Assembly: GCA_019677205.1 (NCBI GenBank)
Contig: JAAMXY010001049.1
Location: 62,001-126,000, forward strand
Length of the DNA: 64,000 nt
Direction: 5' to 3'
From: Pinguiococcus pyrenoidosus
Taxonomy: Eukaryota; Sar; Pinguiophyceae; Pinguiochrysidales; Pinguiochrysidaceae
Shown here: positions 522 to 60,714 of the stretch, piece by piece
Position numbering within the stretch: position 1 is the first letter of the stretch
Layout: each line of letters starts with the position of its first letter
Translations under genes and position numbers: made by a program
Notes under the pieces: model-generated
Told to the model about the DNA's origin: nothing
The model's input: the letters and a program-made list of their open reading frames with translations, nothing else
Database searches by the model: none

Positions 522-1769
522 TCAGAAGCGCCTGTATTGCAGAAAATGCTGCAGGTCTGGGATCGCCAGTTGGGGCAGTAATGGGACGCTCAACAACGGA
601 GTCGGCTGCCGCGTTCGTACCGTCATTTGTGACGCCAGGTCACTCGAGCTCTCAATCACCCTCGATCTCGACCTTTTCTGACCTACTCTAGCGTCTCTGC
701 GCTCTTTGCAGGCCTTTTTGGTGCACTTTCGACAACAGATCTTGCCGCAGAATTCGCATCGAGCGTACTTTGCCAAAGGACAAGGCTGCACACCGCATGT
801 ACAGGTGTGTTCGCAACGCTCAAAAGCTTTCTCCAACTGCTCATGGACTTCCTTCTTTTTTGCAGCCCTCGAAGTTTTTTGGTGCTCTTCTTCGACGGCC
901 TTGGCTTCGACCTGCGCAGCCGCCTTTGCGAGCTCACGAAGGGTCTGCGAACCATAGCTGTGTCGAACTCGGCGTTTCTTCCTGCGCGACTTCTCCTGTT
1001 CCGTCTCTTCAACGTCTACTAGTCCGGCTTCATCTGGTAGCAGGGGGATCTCCTTGAGCTTTGCGATGATGTTCTGAGCTGTCTTGCATTTCTCTCTCCA
1101 GAATGCCACGGAGCCCTTGCGAAGATCCACCGGCGAAAGGACCTCCGTTGCTACCCTCTGCAAGGCTTGCTCTGGAGTCGGAGCTCTCACGATGAAGCTT
1201 GTTCGGTTCACATTCTGAGGCTTGAGGCCGCCAGATTCAAGCCCAACCAGTCGAAAGGACTCGCGACGATCGAGCGGACTAGCCCACCACGGCCAAATGG
1301 TGAGGACGACGTCGATGAAGTCCTTCAGAGAGAGGGCCTTCTCGCCATTTCGTTTCTTCCAGCGCTTGACTTCGGTGTGGTAGGCCTTGTGAAGCATGCG
1401 ATTATACTGATCCAAGGCCTGAAGGAAGGCACTAGTGTTCGGAGGCTCAAAGTGTAAGCGAATACCTCTCCGGAGGCAAAACTGCTTCGTCGCCTCGTCA
1501 TGATGAGACTCGTGGTTGTCGAGGCAAATCACCACTGGCCGCGGGATTTCGCGTTCTTCGAGCTCTTTGTCCAACATCTGCATCCGTTTGAAAAAGGTCT
1601 CTGAAGTCTGAATGTCTCTCTCAGTCGTACTAAGCAAGGAGAAAAATGAGCACTTCATCCTCTCTTCGATGGAGTTGTCGTACTCCATGGTCCTCTCAGA
1701 GGAAATCAGCTCTGTGTCCACTGTCTGGCGCGCCACTATCAGATGGACGCCGTATTGAAATCCATCCAA
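522..1769 (-). pseudogene. DDE-superfamily transposase, 5'-truncated remnant
   Basis: The frame has no ATG at its 5' end (it opens at TTG) and reads as the catalytic half of a DDE endonuclease of the pogo/Tigger-jerky type. It contains a short strand ending VICLDNHESHH (second Asp), then about 25 residues later EPPNTSAFLQALDQ, the family pattern around the third acidic residue. A helical region and a long basic stretch follow, then a Cys-rich tail (CTCGVQPC, CEFCGKICCRKC) that probably binds zinc, then a basic Ser/Arg end. The N-terminal DNA-binding part is missing. A matching upstream stretch (HAALRFPPYDAGDW, about 1739-1850) lies in another frame, suggesting a frameshift. I infer an inactive copy. 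Confidence 0.7.
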
Positions 1770-16274: not shown

Positions 16275-19200
16275 TCACAGCTCATCGACATCCGCTGCCT
16301 CCCTCCACTGCGAACGGGTTTTCGGAACGACGACGCATTGGCTCCCGGGACGCTTCGCTAGCGACGCAGGATCGGCGCGCAGGGCCGCCTCGCTGGAGTC
16401 GGGAGTTTCCTTAGATCTACCGAGCCCCTCGCTGAGGGATCCACCCAGGTCAACGTGCGACAGCGCTTGTATCGTGGCCGCGTCCCGCACGGTCGGGGCG
16501 CTCGGCCGAACCTGCACGGTCTTGGTAGCTGGTCGGAAGCTCTCCAAGGAGACCCGCCGCCGTCGCACGAGGGGCTTCTTCCGCTCTGTTCCCAGAAAGC
16601 CTGCTCCGAGGGCTTTTGATGTTTTGGATCTCGAGATGAAGCGTGTGAGCGCGGATTCACGCTCGTCTTCCCCCGGCGCTCCGCAGCCCACCGAGGCCTG
16701 ATTGCGATTCACCTCCTTCGAAGGGGATTCTCCTTCTTTGCTTCGCAGTCTCGTCCCTTCCGGCCTGCGCTGCACCGGCTCTGCCGGCTCCACGCTCAGT
16801 GATCCAGACGGCGAGGAAGGCGGACTGGCCAAGCTCTCGTTGGTGTTCTTCGCGTCCACGGCGTACGCAACATGGCGTATGAGCTCCCGCATGACCTGGC
16901 TCGAGACTCTGTAGAGCTGGCAATGGGACGTTGAGACCATCTTGCTGACCCAGACAGACGGTCTCTCCTTCTTCGTCAGATTGGTGGTGGCCAGCTCGAG
17001 ATCAACCGCACACGCGACGGATCCGTCTTGCCTCTGCAACGACAGCTTCACCTGTGTCGCAGGAACCCCAACGTCCGGGACACGTGTAGAAGCTTTGGCG
17101 ATGCAGATCTCCTTCCGGGCTGGCGTCTGCACCCACAGCTCCGCGGCGACGGTTCGAAAGTCCGGCGACACTTTGCAGCGATAGCACTCATCAACCGGAA
17201 TCGTGTTCGCGAGCTGCAACGGCGCAGTGTGCCAGTCCTTGGGCCCCACACGGATTCGAAGGAAGCAGCGCACGACTCCCTTCTGACTGCTCACGACGTC
17301 GTTTGTCTTCTGGAGACCGCTGATTCTCATCACGTTCGCCGTGAGGCGAAGCGTGGGGAACTCAGCGGCGCGCAACAGAGGCACGTAGTGACCACGGCCG
17401 ATGACGGAGCCGGTGACCACCGGCTCGAAATCTCCGACGTCGTCGACAGCTCTGACGTGGCCGCTGCAGAGCACAAACACGGTGTCGGCGTCGTCTTGCT
17501 GCAGGTCGATCAGCACCTCGTTGGGTACGGACAGGTACAGTTCCATGCGCCTGAGCATGGAGCGCAGGAAGCCATCTTCTCTGCCAGCCGAGATGGCCGA
17601 GCGCTGAAGCGGTGCCAGACACGCGTCTTCTGCGAGACGCATCCGGGTCTGCGTGGAGAGGCTCTGGAAGACGTTGGGCAGCCAGATCCCCTCCAGCTTG
17701 GAGTCGATGTGCTTGAAGAACTTCAACGTCGTCTCGCGGATCTCCAGCCCGTAGCGGTGCGAACGCATGTAGCGCCTGATCACGCCATGCCGCCGCCGTC
17801 GAGTCGCCGTCTCGTGCTCCCGCGCTTCGATGGCAGAGCTCATCACGGCCGTGATGCAGGCGTCGCACAAAACGGCGCCGAAGACCATGACGAAGATGGC
17901 GAACACGCGCTCGGCGTCCGTGACAATCTGCACGTTGCCATATCCCACGGTGGTGAGCGTGTAGAGCGCCCAGTAGTATGCTCTTAGGTACAGCTCTGCC
18001 TGCGTGAGACACTGCCGACGCGAGTGGATTTCACAATCGATGGCGTCCAGCCAGTTGGGACTGCTCTCCACGCGGCCCAGGCACAAGAACACACAGGCCG
18101 CCGTATGCGCAGACAGTATCGTCAACAGCATCATCTTCGCCGTGCGTCGCAGGCCGCTGGCGCCCGTCGCGAAGAACTCCAGACTGTCCATGTAGGCGGC
18201 AAGTCTGGCAACCCGCGCCCACTGAAAGAGCCTCAGGAGGCCCCGGAGCGAAGCCCGGTAGCCCGCCGCCGACGCCAGCAGCGACACGGGCAGCGTGGCC
18301 ACGGCGTCGTACTTGAAGTCCTTGGCCAGGTACAGCTTGGAGAAGTCGCGATACCTGTTGAGTAGAATGCCTTCGTGGACACGCGCGAAGCAGCGCAGGC
18401 GCAGGAAAATGTCCACGAGGAAGAACAGCTCCGCGGCGCTCTCCGCCACCACGGTCGCCGTGGAGTCGGGAACATCGAAGGCCAAGCCCAGCGGGATGAG
18501 CAGCAGCAGGGCCGAGGTGAGCAACAGCGCCAGCGCATCCCAGGCGACTCGTTGGACACTGTGCGGCTCCACCACGAAGCGGTCTCCCGAGGGCTCCTCG
18601 TCCACGTGGCCCGCCATCAGCTTGCGCATCTTGGAGTTGTGGAGGTTGTCCGCGACCTTTGCGATCATGGACGACGTGCTCTGCGCCAGCAGCTCCACCG
18701 CGTGCTGCTGCACGTAGTGGTCGAAGTGCTCCACCTGGTCCAGTTCGCGAAGCAGCATGACGAAGTCGTCCTTGTGCAGCGTAAAGCACAGGCTGTTGTC
18801 GTCGGCTATGGCCAAGCAGGGCTGCACCAGCGCGCCGAAGAACTCTCCCTCTCCGAAGGAACAGAATTCCAGCGTCGTGAACGTGGTCTGGCCGTCCGCA
18901 CTGCTGAGACGCACCCGCCCGCGGAAGAGATAGTACAGCGTGATGGCCAGCTCGTTGTTGTAGAACACCACGTCGCCCTTGAGATACGTCTCGATCTTGA
19001 GCTTCTCCACCAGGCGCACCAGCTCGGTAGTCCCGTAGCTGCGGAAGAAGAACTGCTTGCTCACGGACGGTCCGATGAGATCCAGCACCAACTCCGTGCG
19101 CAGCTGAGACGGCAGGTAGCCCAGCAGCTCGGTGCCCGGGACGCCGCGCTGCGTGGCCCAGATCGCAGAGAAGTACTTGCGCATATGCTCCGTCTGCTCG

Positions 19201-22200
19201 TGCCTGGCGTTTTGGAGGCGCAGGAAGGCCCCGATGGTTTCCTTCTGGTTGGCGAAGAGGCTCACGGTGACGTCCACCTGCGTCACGATGTCCTCCAGGT
19301 TCGCCACGCAGAACGTGAAGATGAGCGTGCCAAACACCAGCACCACCACGTTAAAGAGGATCTCCGCGTCGGATACAGCCGCGATGTCTCCGTAGCCCAC
19401 CGTAGTGAGCGTGGCCACGGCCCAGTACAGCGCGTGGATGTATTGCGACGGGTAGCTGGCGTCGGGCAGAATCCCCGCCTGCGCGGCCCAGTTGGCGTCG
19501 CTGCCGCTCTCAAAGTCTTCGAACGCCAGGAGGAAGAAAACGCACGCGAAGAAGTGCGAGCCCAGGAACAAGAGAAACAAGAGCTTGCCCATGCGAAGGC
19601 TTCCCTTGCCCACGGTCAAGCCTTGCTTGGCGCCGAAGTCCTCCAGAGCACCCACGTGGAGCCGCAGGTCCACGGCACGAGCCAGCTTGGGAACCCGCAG
19701 CACCGCGAACAGCTGCGGCGCAGTGAGGCCGTCCGGAGAGACCAGGAACGCCACCACCTCGATGGGCAGCAGCCCGAGCATGTGGGGCACCAGGCGACCA
19801 GTGCGGATGGAATACTGGAGCCGCGGCCAGAAGGCGTCAGCAACGACGGCGCCGTCGTCGTCGACGTCTGTGAAGCGCAGTCGAAGAATCACGTCCAGCA
19901 GAAAGACGGCGTCGCCCAGATAATCCACCACGAAGTATCGAATGCGACTCTCCTGCCCAAAGAACGCCAGACGGAACGGCACTGACAATACGTTCCACAC
20001 CACACAAAGGAGCACCAGTGCATTCCACCAGCTGTAAGAGGAATACTTCCCACCCAAGCGCTTCTCTCTGGCTTCCGACGCGGCCTCTCCTGCCTCGGCC
20101 ACCTGCACGACCGATCGCTGCCGCTCCGAAGCGAACGCGCGAATGTCGTCAAGACGCGCTTCGTCGGCAGAGACGCGCAAGAGGATCGAGTGAAACGCAG
20201 AGCGCTCCAGCAGAAACAGCTCACAGTCGGTACAGGCGCGCGCGTGTACCTGATCCAGCGAGGCATCAACACGCTCTTTATTGCCCCCATTCCCAGCATC
20301 GTTGTCGTCGTTGGGAAGTATCTGCCACTCGTAGAAAGTTCCGCCGGGTGCCGCAGACGTGGTGTTGTCCCTCCAGATGAGGTCCACGAAGCCAGAGTTC
20401 ACGAAGAACATGCCAGGCGCCGGCTTGTCCGCAGCCACAATCCAGTCATGGCGCCGATAGAGGCGTTCCTGTAGATTTACCATGAGCAAGCGCCTGACAC
20501 CGCCACTGCAGCTGCGAAAGGCGTCGCAGCCGTCTACCAAGGTATGGCTGATGGCTAGACGAACGTCGTTGCGCAAGTTGTGCGGCAGCCGATTTGCCCA
20601 CAGCCGCTGCTCGTCGACGCCGTTGGCCTCAGTCTCCACGAAGTCCAGGAAGTGTTTGACTTTGTCCTGCACGTGGTGCGACACAGACTGCTCCGTCATG
20701 AACACGCTGAGCGCTTCCCTCTTGTGCACCACGTTGTTGGGCGACACTTCCACATTCCGCACGAACGATGCCACATTCGCGACGACCGAGGCCGAGAAAA
20801 TAGCTCCAATACCGCCCACGAAGAGCGCATACACCGTGGAATCGATGGCGTCGGGAGAGATGTCGCCATAGCCCACGGTGGTGAAGGTGGTGAAGGCCCA
20901 GTAGAGTGAGCGATGGTAGCCCTCGTCGTCGTAGAGGACCAAAGACCACCCGACGCTGGCCCAGTGGATGATCACCAGAGCGGCAAGAACCAGCTTGGTG
21001 ACCGCCATGGCGCTAGCAGACACCACCCAATTGAAGGCATCCGCTAGGTGTATCTTGAAATCGTTAACATACGCTGACAGCAGGAGCGTGCGTAGCAGCT
21101 TAGGCAGCCGCAGCAACGCCAGCGTCCGCGTCGGATTGTCGGCATCGACGAGGAGTAGGAATACACGGCCCAGGTACTCCAAGGGCAGCACGCAAAGCAG
21201 CTCCAGCTTGAAGCGCAGGGACGACTGGTAGCGGAGGCGGATGGCGTCCAAGTCGTACACGACATCATGGCGGCCCGTCTCGATGTCTCGGAAGGCGAAG
21301 AGTCTTGCCTGCGCCAGCATCTCGCACAGATGCACCACTTCCACAAGGCCGTTGAGCGCGAATTCCGTGGCCGTCAAGTCGGCGTCGGTGCCGCCCAGGA
21401 AATACGCCGGGATGCTGAGCGCGACGTACAGCGCGCAGGACGCCAACAGTGCGTCCCAGTATACTCTTAGCGGCGAGTCGGGCTCGATCAAGTAGTCGTC
21501 TCGCTTCAGCACGGTGTCTTCCATCATGGACTTCACCTTCGCCGTGGTATTCTTCTGCGCCGCCAGGCGCTTCTTGTGCTGCTCGATCTCCGTACGATAC
21601 GCCTTGATCGTGGCGGCGATGCCTTTGTCCGTGGACTTCCACGGCTCCAGACACTCCGTGCGAAGCTCCGGGAACGCCGGCAGCAGGCGCTGCCAGTCGG
21701 CGTAGACGAGCACGAAGACCTCGCAGAAGGACGCCGAGGACGCGCGGAGGCCCACGGGATGGTTGGTGCCGAACAGCAGCTGGAAGTCGCCGACAAAGTC
21801 TCCTGGTAGCATCGTGCTCAAGGGATGCTCGTTGCCTTCCACCACCACTTGGATCTCACCGCTCCTCGCAATCACCAAGTCGCGCTGCGGCTCACCGCAC
21901 TGCACGATCGTCGAAGCCGGCGCGTACACCAACGGCTGCAACGCCGCGGCGGTCTGGAGCAAAAAGTCGCGGCTGCGAAAGCTGGGGTTCCAGAACGGAA
22001 TTTTCTCCAGCAGCAGACACCGCCGCTGCCACAGCTTGAGCCGCACGTCTTCCGGCAGCTCCGCCAGGATCTGGTGCTCCAGCACACCGAACTGCTTGTT
22101 GTAGATGTAGTCGAAGATGCCGTTGATGCGCGAGCGCAGCTCCTCCGACAGCTGCCGGAAGTCCATGTACAGCGCCAGCTCGTCCATCTCGCTGCGGAAG

Positions 22201-23370
22201 CGCATGCGGATGACGTCCAGGTTGGCCAGCGCAGAGATCATGCTGGCGATCAGCAACGAGTACAAGAAGGTACAAGCCACCAGGACGCAGCAGGTGAAGG
22301 CCAACTCCGCCTTACTCTGCGGTACTACGGAGTCGCCGTAGCCGATCGTGAAGCTGCTTTGCACCATGAAGTACATGGAGCGCACGTAAACCTCGGCAAC
22401 CAGCGGCTTCCGCCGGGGTTCGTACTCATCGTTGTAGTGCGCCAGCACTACATCTTCACCCGTCCAGGTGAAGCGCTCGTTGCAGAAGGTGCCGGGACAC
22501 GAGATGCGGTAGTACACACAGGCGGCAGCGTTGTTGATAAGCAAGATGACGAGGACGATACCAGAAACGCGGACGACACCGGAGTTCGCTACATAGCCCC
22601 GCGCCTCGAAGGCCTCCCAAATCGCACGTACCTGCTTCTTGACGCGAAGCAGGCGGGCAACGCGGAGGAGCACAAAAGCATCGGGCCCCAAGAAGGGGGG
22701 GAATTGCACGCCGCTCAGGAAAAGCACCTCCAAGACCGCCGGTGCGGAGGAGATGATGTTGACGACGAAGTCCATGCTGCGGAAGTAGGCGCTGCGGATC
22801 TCCGGCAGCGAGACGATTGTGCGCTGCGACAGTGCGTCTCGGTATGGCAGATTCGCCAGAAGAATCACGTCGATGAGAAAGACGCCATCGATGAGAAGAT
22901 CCGTCACGAAGACAGCTCTCCGGCTGGCCTGCAGAGAGACTCATTCAGTCCATCGTCGTCGAACGCCGAAGAGCCACCAAGGGGGTCAGCTCTCTCATAC
23001 CTCGTCTTCCTTGAGCACGGCGAAGCGGATGGGAATGATCATCAATGTGTACACCAGCAAGACCAGAAGCAAGGCGTCCCAGAGCGCTCGCTGGATACAC
23101 AGAGGTTGCCATGACGCCAGCGGAGTGATTCTCTAGAACGCCGGAGTCACAATCTATGAAAAAATGCCTCACGTCATTCGCTGGCGCCGCAGCGCGTACC
23201 TTGGTACGACCAGAAGACTCCAAGGCGAGAGCCACTTGCTTGCTGAAGTCCTTCTGCGACTGCGTCGGCACCTGTGCTAACGCCTTTTTCCATCTGCGGC
23301 GCAACGAGGTCAACCTTAGCTTCCGCTCGGATCGCGAAGAGGTGGATACTTGTGTCGCAATATCCTGCAA
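16275..23370 (-). CDS. giant four-repeat cyclic-nucleotide-type potassium channel
   Basis: One uninterrupted exon of ~6.6 kb (22928-16275) plus 5' exons. It encodes four consecutive channel units, each with six membrane segments, a pore and a C-terminal cNMP-binding-like domain, as in KAT/HCN/EAG channels. Pore filters: TIGYGD (22332-22343), TTVGYGD (20862-20873), TTVGYGD (19386-19397) and TTVGYGN (17934-17945), spaced about 490, 492 and 484 residues apart. Unit 1 has an S4-like RVARLLRVKK. The first S1 helix (ALWDALLLVLLVYTLMIIP) lies on an upstream exon (23090-23001), joined by introns 22929-23000 and 23091-23139, both in phase. A C2-like stretch (~residues 1740-1850) and a disordered Ser/Arg tail end the protein. 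The true start is unresolved, with an exon at least to ~23360. The long frame itself opens at GTG and is not a start. Likely a plasma or ciliary membrane K+ channel. Confidence 0.88.
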
Positions 23371-56775: not shown

Positions 56776-59700
56776 TCAGGCTGGTGCCAACGGCGCTCCA
56801 TCACTGTTCGCGCGGCATCGGCAAAAGACGTCGGCAACGAAGTGGTACACCCGCGGCGCATAGCTTTTCACGCGCTCAACGTGAGGGCATTCGATCGTCC
56901 AGCGCTTCGCACCACTGCCCTCCTCCCCACCGGCAAGCCCTTGCTGCCGCAAAAGCGCTTCCTTCTCCAGCAGCAGGCTCTCGACCCGCTTCTTCAAGGC
57001 TGCGATCCAGTCGTCAACCTCATCTTCCCGAACATTCTCATGAACGTGCAACCATCCCCCGGTGGCCTTCAGCGCCCAGGCGCCAAGGTCCAGGCCAGTC
57101 TCTGAGCTGGGGAGGAGTCCCAGACAGACGCGATCCGCAATGCCAAGAAGCCCACGGTCTTTCGGTCTCGGCGCCATTCCGTCGTCGGCAGATTCCGTCA
57201 GGGCCTTGTCGACGAAGCCGCCCAAGACCGTCCTTCGATTGTCACCGGGGTGGATGATCACGCACTCGTCCGACAGCCCATTCACGAGGACGTTGTTCCG
57301 CAGCGCCAGCAGTGAATTTGGATTCCACTCGCACGCGTGGACAACCTCGGCACCGGCGTGCAGGCTGAAAGGGATGGTGTAGTAGCCGATGCCAGCGTAG
57401 AGATCCACGACGGTCTCGCCGGCGGCCTCGACTCGCCCCATCCGCATTCTCTCGGTGACGTTGCCACTGCAGAACATGACCCTTGTGAAGTCGAAGCCAT
57501 ACGTCACGCCGCCTTCGCGCACTTCGACCCAACCCAATCCGCCGGTGCCCGTCCGCTTCGGAATCCAGCCCTCGAGGAGCAAGGCAGACGCCTCAGAGGC
57601 GGATTCAGGACGCTCCCGAATCGCCGCCACAGAGTCGGCGCGATCTTCCCTGAGAAGGAACCCGTCCGGGGAGACGCCGTAGGACAGCTTGAGCTTTTCG
57701 TCCAAGCTATCTTCTCCACGCGCATCGCCTTGGGTCGGAATGATCAGGCGAACGCGCGATTCCCTCTTCGGTCCCGGATCCACCGCGGCCGCCAACGCAA
57801 CTCGCGAGCAATCCAGCGCCTGTGCTATGGCACTGAGGACAGCCTGCTGCAGACGCTGGGCACGCCCGGCCATCGCAAACAGAGCACTCCACACGGGGCC
57901 TGAGAAGGTGTGCGGCTGCAGGAGCAGCACATCTCGGCCGAGCACCTCGAAGCGCCCAGGAAACAAGTCCCTTTCCTTCGCCAAGAGGGCCTCGAACGAA
58001 GACGGCACCACGCCTTCACTCTGGAGGTAAGTCGAGATTGTCCGGTTGGCGCTGTTCAATGCCCTACGGTTGGCGCTCCGCTCGTTGGACGAGCTCATGG
58101 GAGTCTCCATGGCACCGTCGGAAGCCTGCTCCGAGGAGTACTTGAGAATGACGCAGGACTGGGATTCCAGCGCCGCCTTCAGGGTAGCAACGGCGACTGC
58201 TGGAGAGAGGTTTCGTGCCTCGTGTTGCTGTCGTCGTTTCCTCTCCCTCACACTGAGGGCCTCACCTGCAACTCCTTCGGCTTCACGCACACCTTCGGAT
58301 GCCTGCACAGACGGCAGATCCGCCAGAATCTCGGATGTGCGCGCGCTGATTGGCAGCGCAAGGAGCTTGGCCTCGCCCTCACTACCTTCCAACCGCAGTC
58401 CGAACTCCTTGGCGACGCTACCATGGAACGGGTGTATTCGCCGCGATTTCTGCAGCAGATCTAGGCGCTCCAGGCAAGTCTTCATCGACTTGGTTGCTGC
58501 CGCGGGTGAAACAAGGACGGTGAACCCTTTGCTGGCGGATCGTTCCGCAGAGCGGTCATGGCGCATGCTTCCCAATGCCAACCGGGAGTCTTTCTCAAGG
58601 CGCTTCTCGTCCGCGCTCCCTCCACCATTCAGTAGCGGACGAGGCAGCGCCGCGCTTGAGTTCAGGTCCTGTGCCGGCTCTTTTCCCTCTCTCTCCTCTG
58701 AGACGGTGATTGAGAGGTAGGCCGTTGGTGAGAACACCGGGCCGAAAGCGAATGTTTGCTGGCCCCCTCCAAGGAGGCCGACCACGTGCGTCTCGCCATC
58801 CGCGTGCAGTTGGACACAAGCACCAGACGAGAAGAGTGACAGGTCACAGGCCGCCCAAGGCGAATCCAAAGCTTCTGGCGGGAGGCGAACCCTTCCCGTG
58901 ACGCAGTCGACCACGGCGCCGTCCTTGCCCTCCAAGTTGCTCACATCCAGGACAGCTATAGAGGGAACGGCTCCGCCACCTTCTTGGTCCGGATCGAAGC
59001 ACCCACCGCAAATCAAAAGAGAGGTTCTTCCTTGATCTGCAGCATCCAAGGGCGTCATGGTGTGTCCGAAGCGATTGAAGATGCTCGTCGAAGCCACGGA
59101 GTGCCGCGAGTCGTGGAACTGAAGGACCGCAACTTCAGCATCGGACACGGGCTCAGCCTCCAAGCTTTTCGTGATCCTCGGAGACACCTCCACAACAGCG
59201 GGGCCCTGAGGAGCTTGGCCGAGCCTATCCACGCAAGCGGCCACATCGATCTGGATGAGGCTCGAGACCGGCTTCACCACGGGACTTGTGCTTGAAAGCC
59301 CGCCGGAGACGAACACCGCCTTGCCATCCGCGCTGCCACAGGCCGCGTGCAAAAAGCGCTTGGAAAGCTGCTCTCCTCCCAGGTTTAGCCTGGTCCAGGC
59401 GATGGAAAACGAGTCGCCGCCGCTGTCTTTCAAGACGTGTCCGACGAAGGCATCGCAGAAGACGGTGGTGCCGTCGCGTCCGCCGTAGAGGAGAAACGCG
59501 CCTTCGCAGCTGTCCGTCGGCACCTTGCAGCTCCGCAGCAACGACTCCACCGGCCGGATGCTCGCGACCGCCAAGGCCCATCTAGACGCGATCGGTGATT
59601 CGACGCTGCGCACCTGCGCCCCTTCTATGTCAAGCTCGGCATGCTGGGCGCACGTGATCCCCTTTCGCTCCAGGTCCAGGACGAAGAAGTCGTGCGACGC

Positions 59701-60714
59701 ATCTTGGGGACTATTGCGCCCGCAGCAATACAAGAAGAGCTGCGTCGAGGTCTGCCTTGGTCCCGTCAACTCCTCGAGGCGACGCAATCTGCAACCCGCA
59801 GCCTGCTCCCGTAGAGGCAAACTATCGCTCATGTCAAGCAGTTCCCAGCGACCGCTCGCAGGGCGCCACAGGAGCACATCGCCTCTTCGCCGCCTGGACG
59901 GATCTGCCCCGCTTGCCGTGCTCGGCACCTCGCCGAAGCCACCTACAACGAGGACAGCGTCCTCTCCAGACGCTAGCCTAACCCGTTCGGCCACATGGCC
60001 CCAGCGCCGAAAGCTGCCTGGCGCGTCCCGGCCGGAGAACGCGAGCTGCCTGGGCTTCACCACGTCACAGAAAGCTGGAGCGAACGCCTCTCTCGCCGCT
60101 CTAAAGAGCTCTTGCGTGCGCTTGGCATTCCTCTCAAAGGCCGCGTTGCAGAGGCAGACCATGGCTACGACGGCGTCGTCCGGAACGCGGCAGCCGGACA
60201 GGATCACGGGCGCGGCGATGATGTCGCTGGTGGTGCGGATCGCAACCAGATTCCTCGCCGCACTTGGGACCATTCCGGACTCCCGAAAGCCCTGCGAGAT
60301 CGCCAGCTTCAGCAGCTTGTTCGCCGAGGCGAACGTGCGGCACTGAACATGCAGGATCATCGGTTCGTGGCGCAGCGTCGCTCGCAAGCTGGACACGTCA
60401 TCGCTTCCCGCCTTCTGAAGCACCCTGAGCACTTCCTCCGGCTCCACCTGTCGATGCTCCACGAGAGCCCAGTTGCCACGGCCTTTGGACGAGTCATTCG
60501 GCGTTGCGGAGTTCTCCTCGAACACACAGATGCGTCCGGAGCAGGAGCTCGTGGTGACGAAGTCGCTTTGGGCGTTGAGGAAGTGGACGAAATCTGCGAT
60601 GGGCGCGTCCAAGCTGCCCTTGGGGGACTTATCCTGCTCTGCGAGCTTGGAGAGCGCCAGCGCCTTGAACTGCGGAAAGCGTCGCGACCATTCCGACGCG
60701 ACTGTGGAGAGCAT
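56776..60714 (-). CDS. TYW2/3/4: tRNA wybutosine-synthesizing protein 2/3/4 fusion (TYW3-kelch-TYW2)
   Basis: Makes wybutosine at position 37 of tRNA-Phe. Single exon, 1312 aa, ATG at 60714. Residues 1-215 are TYW3, the N4-methylation step: DKSPKGSLDAPI near 27, FVTTSSCSGRICVF, EPMILHVQCRTFASANKLLK, FRESGMVPSAARN. A kelch propeller follows (~235-690; RWGHVAERVRLASGEDAVLV, RFLHAACGS, RFGHTMTPLD), equivalent to the TYW4 propeller. The last ~430 residues are TYW2, the aminocarboxypropyl transferase: YGFDFTRVMFCSGNVTERMR, VVDLYAGIGYYTIPFSLHAG (~1100), VHACEWNPNSLLALRNNV. The order is that of the plant TYW2/3/4 protein. The TYW4 methyltransferase half is absent. Confidence 0.93.
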   Translation of the reverse strand: MLSTVASEWSRRFPQFKALALSKLAEQDKSPKGSLDAPIADFVHFLNAQSDFVTTSSCSGRICVFEENSATPNDSSKGRGNWALVEHRQVEPEEVLRVLQKAGSDDVSSLRATLRHEPMILHVQCRTFASANKLLKLAISQGFRESGMVPSAARNLVAIRTTSDIIAAPVILSGCRVPDDAVVAMVCLCNAAFERNAKRTQELFRAAREAFAPAFCDVVKPRQLAFSGRDAPGSFRRWGHVAERVRLASGEDAVLVVGGFGEVPSTASGADPSRRRRGDVLLWRPASGRWELLDMSDSLPLREQAAGCRLRRLEELTGPRQTSTQLFLYCCGRNSPQDASHDFFVLDLERKGITCAQHAELDIEGAQVRSVESPIASRWALAVASIRPVESLLRSCKVPTDSCEGAFLLYGGRDGTTVFCDAFVGHVLKDSGGDSFSIAWTRLNLGGEQLSKRFLHAACGSADGKAVFVSGGLSSTSPVVKPVSSLIQIDVAACVDRLGQAPQGPAVVEVSPRITKSLEAEPVSDAEVAVLQFHDSRHSVASTSIFNRFGHTMTPLDAADQGRTSLLICGGCFDPDQEGGGAVPSIAVLDVSNLEGKDGAVVDCVTGRVRLPPEALDSPWAACDLSLFSSGACVQLHADGETHVVGLLGGGQQTFAFGPVFSPTAYLSITVSEEREGKEPAQDLNSSAALPRPLLNGGGSADEKRLEKDSRLALGSMRHDRSAERSASKGFTVLVSPAAATKSMKTCLERLDLLQKSRRIHPFHGSVAKEFGLRLEGSEGEAKLLALPISARTSEILADLPSVQASEGVREAEGVAGEALSVRERKRRQQHEARNLSPAVAVATLKAALESQSCVILKYSSEQASDGAMETPMSSSNERSANRRALNSANRTISTYLQSEGVVPSSFEALLAKERDLFPGRFEVLGRDVLLLQPHTFSGPVWSALFAMAGRAQRLQQAVLSAIAQALDCSRVALAAAVDPGPKRESRVRLIIPTQGDARGEDSLDEKLKLSYGVSPDGFLLREDRADSVAAIRERPESASEASALLLEGWIPKRTGTGGLGWVEVREGGVTYGFDFTRVMFCSGNVTERMRMGRVEAAGETVVDLYAGIGYYTIPFSLHAGAEVVHACEWNPNSLLALRNNVLVNGLSDECVIIHPGDNRRTVLGGFVDKALTESADDGMAPRPKDRGLLGIADRVCLGLLPSSETGLDLGAWALKATGGWLHVHENVREDEVDDWIAALKKRVESLLLEKEALLRQQGLAGGEEGSGAKRWTIECPHVERVKSYAPRVYHFVADVFCRCRANSDGAPLAPA

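Follow-up and report, generated by a model that had tools for sequence, protein, structure and literature searches.

Sequence Analysis of a Probable Four-in-One Potassium Channel with a C2-Like Domain in Pinguiococcus pyrenoidosus

Introduction

Can the four pore units of a K+ channel be joined in one chain, and what becomes of each unit once they are joined? The question is raised by a long open frame on the minus strand of a 64,000-nucleotide stretch of Pinguiococcus pyrenoidosus (Pinguiophyceae; assembly GCA_019677205.1, contig JAAMXY010001049.1, positions 62,001 to 126,000), the whole of which is called here the window. Four units, each made of six transmembrane segments (6TM, S1 to S6) with a pore, a C-linker, and a cyclic nucleotide-binding domain (CNBD), are encoded in this one frame. 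From the sequence of the gene we infer that the product is probably a CNBD-class channel, selective for K+ and pseudo-tetrameric, built from one chain, whose gating ring would be tethered or tuned by the membrane through a C2 domain.

The Frame and Its Four Repeats

The frame runs from 16275 to 22940 on the minus strand and holds 2,221 amino acids (aa) without a stop in the open reading frame (ORF) scan of the window. When the mononucleotides of the window were shuffled 20 times, no run without a stop was longer than 340 aa, and a frame arisen by chance was ruled out by this difference. The guanine plus cytosine content at codon positions 1, 2, and 3 was 0.62, 0.42, and 0.81, a pattern as in coding sequence. 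Two GT-AG introns of phase 0 (67 and 72 nt) connected the frame with two upstream exons, giving an open model of 2,316 residues. The first-pass annotation of this DNA had placed the upper limit of the gene at 23370, which is about right, as exon A reaches 23364 in the splice model. The parts of the model are the following (the limits of the CNBDs are approximate).

23200 to 23364, minus strand: exon A, basic N-terminal cytoplasmic stretch (GT-AG splice model, phase 0)
23001 to 23132, minus strand: exon B, S1 of repeat 1 (splice model; match by eye to the N-terminus of relative P0001)
16275 to 22928, minus strand: long exon, remainder of repeat 1 through the stop codon (open frame and Pfam)
21651 to 23132, minus strand: repeat 1, 6TM, C-linker, and CNBD1 (about 21651 to 21953), intron at 22929 to 23000 (motifs, alignment, splice model, profiles)
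22332 to 22349, minus strand: repeat 1 filter, TIGYGD (motif)
20166 to 21476, minus strand: repeat 2, CNBD2 at about 20166 to 20498 (motifs, alignment, profiles)
About 20862 to 20882, minus strand: repeat 2 filter, TTVGYGD (motif)
18741 to 20042, minus strand: repeat 3, CNBD3 at about 18741 to 19043 (motifs, alignment, profiles)
About 19386 to 19406, minus strand: repeat 3 filter, TTVGYGD (motif)
16905 to 18560, minus strand: repeat 4, CNBD4 from about 17537, broken by the C2-like domain and resuming at 16949 to 16905 (motifs, alignment, AlphaFold2 model)
17934 to 17951, minus strand: repeat 4 filter, TVGYGN (motif)
16962 to 17354, minus strand: C2-like domain at the phosphate-binding cassette of CNBD4 (alignment to relatives; profile match)
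16278 to 16850, minus strand: C-terminal tail, Ser/Arg-rich, probably disordered (translation; no Pfam match here)

The T(V/I)GYG motifs were located at aa 198, 688, 1180, and 1664 of the ORF, that is, with spacings of 490, 492, and 484 residues, and the four filters GYGD, GYGD, GYGD, and GYGN reported at first pass as lying 484-492 residues apart were thus borne out. Pfam detected on the frame four Ion_trans stretches, four Ion_trans_2 domains, and only three cNMP_binding domains. CNBD4 was missed by cNMP_binding, probably because the C2 domain splits it, and was recognised by alignment to the relatives. The C-linker and CNBD-like block that had been proposed after each pore was therefore found by Pfam in three repeats and by alignment in the fourth, where the CNBD is in two parts. 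The 6TM core, the K+-type pore, the C-linker, and the CNBD that characterise the CNBD-channel superfamily were all present, CNBD4 through the alignment alone.

The structural models pointed to the same class. AlphaFold2 gave a mean predicted local distance difference test (pLDDT) of 76.4 and a predicted template modelling score (pTM) of 0.52 for repeat 4 modelled together with the greater part of the C2 region, and 72.9 and 0.47, respectively, for repeats 3 and 4 together. Foldseek matches of the two models (best 50 of 1,025 and best 50 of 1,177) were CNG, AKT1, KAT1, HCN, and EAG channels. Considering sequence and fold jointly (best 60 matches by sequence, best 50 per model), the relatives in the PDB were CNG, SthK, TAX-4, HCN, KCNH, and plant Shaker-type channels.

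Relatives and Fixed Repeat Order

The main protein search with the window chain scored at least 7,988 candidates and returned 79 matches, and most of the best ones were single chains of about its size. The closest named protein belonged to Phaeomonas parva (Pinguiophyceae), with 43% identity over 62%. We refer to the window chain and its relatives as family A, with repeat positions A1 to A4. Its named members come from P. parva, Triparma strigata (Bolidophyceae), and the diatoms Conticribra weissflogii, Cyclotella cryptica, and Thalassiosira profunda; these five named carriers of family A repeats are all ochrophytes, the other relatives being metagenomic or unnamed.

A search with position profiles found all four positions, full or partial and in the same order, in 21 relatives besides the window (13 of these 22 four-position proteins contributed no sequence to the profiles). 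Other proteins with four such units, for which the first-pass annotation suggested looking, do therefore exist. Of the 44 proteins that carry at least two A positions, none departed from the order A1-A2-A3-A4. The repeat pattern is not a product of chance, since 21 relatives keep the four repeats in order. Each window repeat was 26-48% identical to the same position in six relatives, and the window repeats were 17-24% identical among themselves, which argues for one pseudo-tetrameric channel. Given the low identity between the repeats and their position-wise match to relatives, it was ruled out that they are four copies of a gene or the product of a tandem duplication of recent date.

The positions have also kept distinct signatures in the filter, S6, and the CNBD. 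A G(Y/F)G filter is present in all four window repeats, and the residue that follows GYG is D, D, D, and N in repeats 1 to 4. Leaving out repeats with gaps in the filter columns, filters ended in Asp in 26/26 A1, 37/37 A2, and 44/44 A3 copies (107/107 together) and in 5/39 A4 copies, so that the fourth filter is without Asp in 34 of 39. In the alignment of 14 relatives the S6 motif reads, with variation, IANMTS, IANVTS, IANLED, and CDAGITA from repeat 1 to repeat 4; in the window it reads IASMIS, VANVAS, VANLED, and CDACITA. The longer form in repeat 4 is CDAG(I/L)TAVL in the family and CDACITAVM in the window. Taken with the K+-type filters, this conservation by position supports the earlier proposal of a pseudo-tetrameric single chain with separately evolving repeats. 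The four repeats would line one pore in a fixed order.

It could be argued that the frame yields four separate polypeptides, through internal starts, proteolysis, or a 2A-like skip, which would then assemble as a heterotetramer. About 40-60 residues separate each CNBD from the S1 that follows it and could hold a cleavage site, although nothing direct speaks for one. Against this, there is no stop codon between the repeats, their order is fixed in the relatives, and all four are present in P0006, a transcript assembled from MMETSP data (2,272 aa), which argues for a single mRNA in a relative. Skipping of the 2A type was ruled out, as the NPGP motif is absent from the frame; proteolysis could still act. 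Taking these points together, we regard separate polypeptides as very improbable. Another MMETSP sequence, P0002, breaks off inside repeat 3, where it runs into a tail of low complexity, and seems to be truncated.

Ligand Sites and Voltage Sensor

Considering that the class is named for its ligand domain, the residues that would hold a cyclic nucleotide were compared using SthK as a ruler. The window segment NHPVGLRA lies opposite PRTATVRA of SthK, which carries what we take to be the Arg that holds the phosphate of the cyclic nucleoside monophosphate (cNMP). At that position the window has H, N, and Q in CNBD1, CNBD2, and CNBD3, and R was found in 1/27 A1, 1/38 A2, and 3/44 A3 copies (5/109 in total). 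In repeat 4 the phosphate-binding cassette is replaced by the C2 domain. As almost no CNBD of positions 1 to 3 has the phosphate Arg, ordinary cyclic-nucleotide gating is unlikely. The idea that every unit has a ligand site of its own therefore stood in part: there is a CNBD in each, but the Arg is missing in the first three and the cassette is replaced in the fourth.

An alternative is that one CNBD, most likely CNBD1 or CNBD3, still binds a cyclic nucleotide or another small ligand in a four-repeat channel, the C2 domain being only a trafficking tag. Three window CNBDs do match Pfam, CNBD1 keeps the GD..L core, and CNBD3 keeps GE; however, the place of the phosphate Arg is taken by H in CNBD1 and by Q in CNBD3, with R as scarce in these two positions of the family as counted above (1/27 and 3/44). 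We consider this alternative unlikely, though it deserves more weight than separate polypeptides.

As for the voltage sensor, the S4 of repeats 2-4 has about three basic residues each, and that of repeat 1 of the window has a larger number. Voltage sensing is therefore probably weak.

The C2-Like Domain inside CNBD4

In the window the inserted domain lies between the strand that ends near GSVIGRGH and the last CNBD strand, STSHCQLYRV; in relatives where it is complete it measures about 118-189 residues. PF00168 matched 13 of 14 aligned inserted segments when E values up to 1 were accepted, the best being 5.7e-21. A profile built from the 14 segments found the window segment at 3.1e-30, the window itself being one of the 14, and among its best 60 of 121 matches in the PDB there were C2 domains of ferlin, synaptotagmin, Munc13, PKC, and NEDD4 (best E = 2.9e-25). 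The profile matched 30 of the 39 A4-bearing proteins (weakest E 0.0011), 14 of which had built it. In the structure search, C2 was not among the listed matches (the best 50 for each model, as above), which were channels only, and the case for C2 rests for that reason on sequence.

Nine of the 39 A4-bearing proteins were without a C2 match, and five of these keep the filter Asp (P0011, P0015, P0020, P0026, and P0083); P0026 ends before the C2 region and is uninformative on this point. In P0015 and P0020 the CNBD4 is closed up, with no insert, and in the tree their A repeats branch outside all others of family A, so that C2 was probably gained within family A. By eye on the alignment, P0001 and P0003 keep most of the Ca2+-ligand pattern (TDLIGFCDPY; DWNRVEED); the window has lost it, the Asp ligands of C2 loops 1 and 3 being absent there. 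The window C2 would therefore be a Ca2+-independent lipid, protein, or structural module.

Proposed Operation of the Channel

Under the single-chain reading, the four CNBDs would form a gating ring that, for want of the phosphate Arg, does not respond to cAMP or cGMP in the usual manner. A single one of the four arms would carry the C2 domain and through it tether the ring to the membrane or tune it, by phospholipid and, in some relatives, also Ca2+. This control would act in addition to a weak voltage sensing by the sparsely charged S4 segments. K+ would leave through the open channel, and the cell would hyperpolarise.

Several observations weigh against this reading. The chain is known in P. 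pyrenoidosus from genomic sequence alone, and the search upstream of exon A located no acceptable ATG exon that would supply the start codon. The global confidence of the models is modest (pTM 0.52 and 0.47), and they support the fold of the unit, not a closed ring of four repeats. With respect to the ligand sites, 3 A1, 4 A2, and 3 A3 copies have an R no more than one column away from the phosphate position, and the A2 alignment is gappy around that column. The Glu preceding the phosphate Arg is kept in 34/38 A2 and 35/44 A3 copies, with Asp in 25/27 A1 copies, and CNBDs can bind other ligands. With respect to C2, the window segment taken alone matched 0 Pfam families, and in P0018, P0019, P0024, and P0025 the A4 repeat has neither the filter Asp nor a match to the C2 profile. 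Loss of the Asp and presence of C2 are therefore not tightly coupled, unless the C2 of these four proteins is too divergent to be recognised; judged by eye, P0018 may contain such a C2.

A Second Family and the Origin of Chaining

The same genome contains a second four-repeat family (B), represented by at least one frame, of 2,236 aa on C264 (1395-8102, minus strand; L009), and by a likely second gene on C235 (L010), where two frames cover B1-B4. Family B repeats were also found in order in the Phytophthora proteins P0031, P0037, P0057, and P0094, and the order was kept in 13/13 frames with two or more B positions. The B3 filter was non-GYG in 10/10 readable cases, eight of them V-V-V-I/L-G-D-like and two GSRE (Phytophthora). 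As a separate observation, P0031 (Phytophthora infestans) and P0094 (P. rubi) have the filters TAGFYD, TVGYGD, LVGSRE, and TVFYGD, so that three of four depart from GYG.

Two-repeat frames, T1-T2, occur in the same genome on C246, C47, and C364 (L011, L012, and L013); they are tandem CNBD channels of the kind known from publications on oomycetes and dinoflagellates. Longer chains came from metagenomes: P0011 (3,834 aa) reads A2-A3-A4-B1-B2-B3-B4, seven repeats in one frame, P0015 (3,590 aa) reads A3-A4-B1-B2-B3-B4, and P0020 (2,262 aa) reads A2-A3-A4-B1, its A2 being preceded by the end of another repeat. These suggest chains of eight repeats, that is, two pseudo-tetramers; seven were the most seen, and the gene caller may have fused neighbouring frames. 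Neither these fusions nor family B nor the C2 domain had been noticed at first pass.

In the IQ-TREE analysis of 85 repeats, every A position was a clade (support 100), A2 grouped with A4 (97), and A1 with A3 (78). The approximately unbiased (AU) test gave, for family A, p-AU of 0.88 for 13|24, 0.18 for 12|34, and 0.054 for 14|23, and for family B, 0.957, 0.028, and 0.075 in the same order. Two rounds of doubling are thus favoured, not proven. A common four-repeat ancestor of both families was rejected (p-AU 0.002), and two alternatives survived, namely chaining in each family independently (0.457) and descent of both from one two-repeat ancestor (0.252). The constrained trees have long branches and were obtained by the fast search of IQ-TREE under the site-homogeneous LG+G4 model. 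From this rejection it follows that chaining probably happened twice. A grouping of T1 with repeats 1 and 3 of A and B, and of T2 with repeats 2 and 4, was likewise rejected (p-AU 1.7e-56; one pairing direction tested).

Taking all this into account, a wider history may be proposed, to which we give slightly less than an even chance. Stramenopiles would have chained CNBD K+ channels repeatedly, in two, four, and eight repeats, arriving at the four-repeat state at least twice, and single pore positions would then have diverged. Family A would have lost the filter Asp of repeat 4 and gained C2 in place of the ligand cassette, becoming a lipid/Ca2+-tuned K+ channel, and family B would have fixed a non-GYG filter in repeat 3, mostly VVV(I/L)GD, becoming a channel with an asymmetric filter.

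Comparison with Known Channels

The unit resembles SthK, CNGA1, TAX-4, HCN, KCNH, and KAT/AKT/SKOR in the order of S1-S6, C-linker, and CNBD and in their fold; to our knowledge, these have a single repeat per chain and a CNBD without C2 inside. The four-domain Cav/Nav channels and TPC also carry internal repeats in one chain, probably acquired by doubling. They differ in the chemistry of the filter, the lack of a CNBD, and their cytoplasmic linkers.

Within the CNBD channels, two precedents are described in the accessible parts of the sources. Pozdnyakov et al. (2020) reported that oomycetes and dinoflagellates have tandem CNBD channels of two repeats, and described the four-repeat architecture of CNGK in metazoans and choanoflagellates (PMC7576140). 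The tandem channels are likewise built of head-to-tail units but have two repeats, and presumably two chains per channel. CNGK (also tetraKCNG), a sperm channel in animals, is pseudotetrameric; that of sea urchin is gated by cGMP at CNBD3 alone, and that of zebrafish is gated by pH and has lost cNMP control (PMC4749565). CNGK thus contradicts the first-pass statement that four-in-one pores are not a K+-channel trait (PMC7576140, PMC4749565).

It is then necessary to ask whether the window gene is an orthologue of animal and choanoflagellate CNGK, inherited from an early eukaryote and gated by cyclic nucleotides. The two share four 6TM-CNBD repeats in one chain (here one frame), K+-type G(Y/F)G filters, and some non-functional CNBDs, as far as the accessible text of the sources goes (PMC7576140, PMC4749565), and the CNGK grouping of 1 with 3 and 2 with 4 is here that of the best tree (supports of 78 and 97), with the alternatives still compatible at p-AU 0.18 and 0.054. 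Given that zebrafish CNGK is without cNMP control and the sea urchin channel uses only CNBD3 (PMC4749565), eroded CNBDs do not exclude orthology. However, gating by cGMP at CNBD3 as in sea urchin found no counterpart by the residue proxy (Q in the window, R in 3/44), and the missing phosphate-binding Arg speaks against cyclic-nucleotide gating in general. No match in the protein searches, including those with pore-region queries, bore the name of an animal or choanoflagellate CNGK; the searches were word-limited and many matches are unnamed. Moreover, since a four-repeat ancestor shared with A was rejected, family B is evidence that such a chain can be built more than once. CNGK repeats are described as nearly identical and without specialisation in the available part of a review (PMC6259924), whereas the window repeats are 17-24% identical. 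The fourth filter without Asp, C2 in CNBD4, and named relatives that are ochrophytes set the window chain further apart. CNGK orthology is in our judgement quite unlikely, and the single-chain channel with a C2-linked ring is preferred.

In the literature searched, which left most subscription papers outside its coverage, the four-repeat CNBD channels described were those of animals and choanoflagellates only, the ones with two repeats came from oomycetes and dinoflagellates, and no report was found of a stramenopile CNBD channel with four repeats or of C2 inside a CNBD. The accessible part of a 2024 survey of diatom Ca2+ channels does not mention four-repeat CNBD channels (PMC11085791). The novelty is thus narrower than a first four-in-one K+ channel: the window gene likely encodes a separate-looking and strongly asymmetric version, with C2 in the place of the ligand pocket. 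A four-in-one K+ channel would show the consequence of freeing the four pore positions from identity, and a natural series of chains with one, two, four, and seven or eight units, in which filters and ligand domains diverge at set positions, would make the origin of an asymmetry like that of Cav/Nav directly testable in a K+ channel. If C2 does replace the cyclic-nucleotide pocket, it would be a wiring of gating ring to membrane so far unreported in the literature searched.

Other Observations

The three diatom matches of family A (P0008, P0082, and P0098) belong to genera that we take to be centric, none being pennate. Centrics are described as the only diatoms with flagellated gametes in the accessible text of the survey (PMC11085791). 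The presence of centric names only is possibly a weak hint of a flagellar or motility role, as for CNGK.

Elsewhere in the window, a frame of 1,312 aa at 56776-60714 (minus strand) has TYW3 and TRM5/TYW2 methyltransferase domains of wybutosine synthesis by Pfam, and the region 522-1769 (minus strand) gave a weak match, under the Pfam cut-off, to a DDE-superfamily endonuclease (transposase-like).

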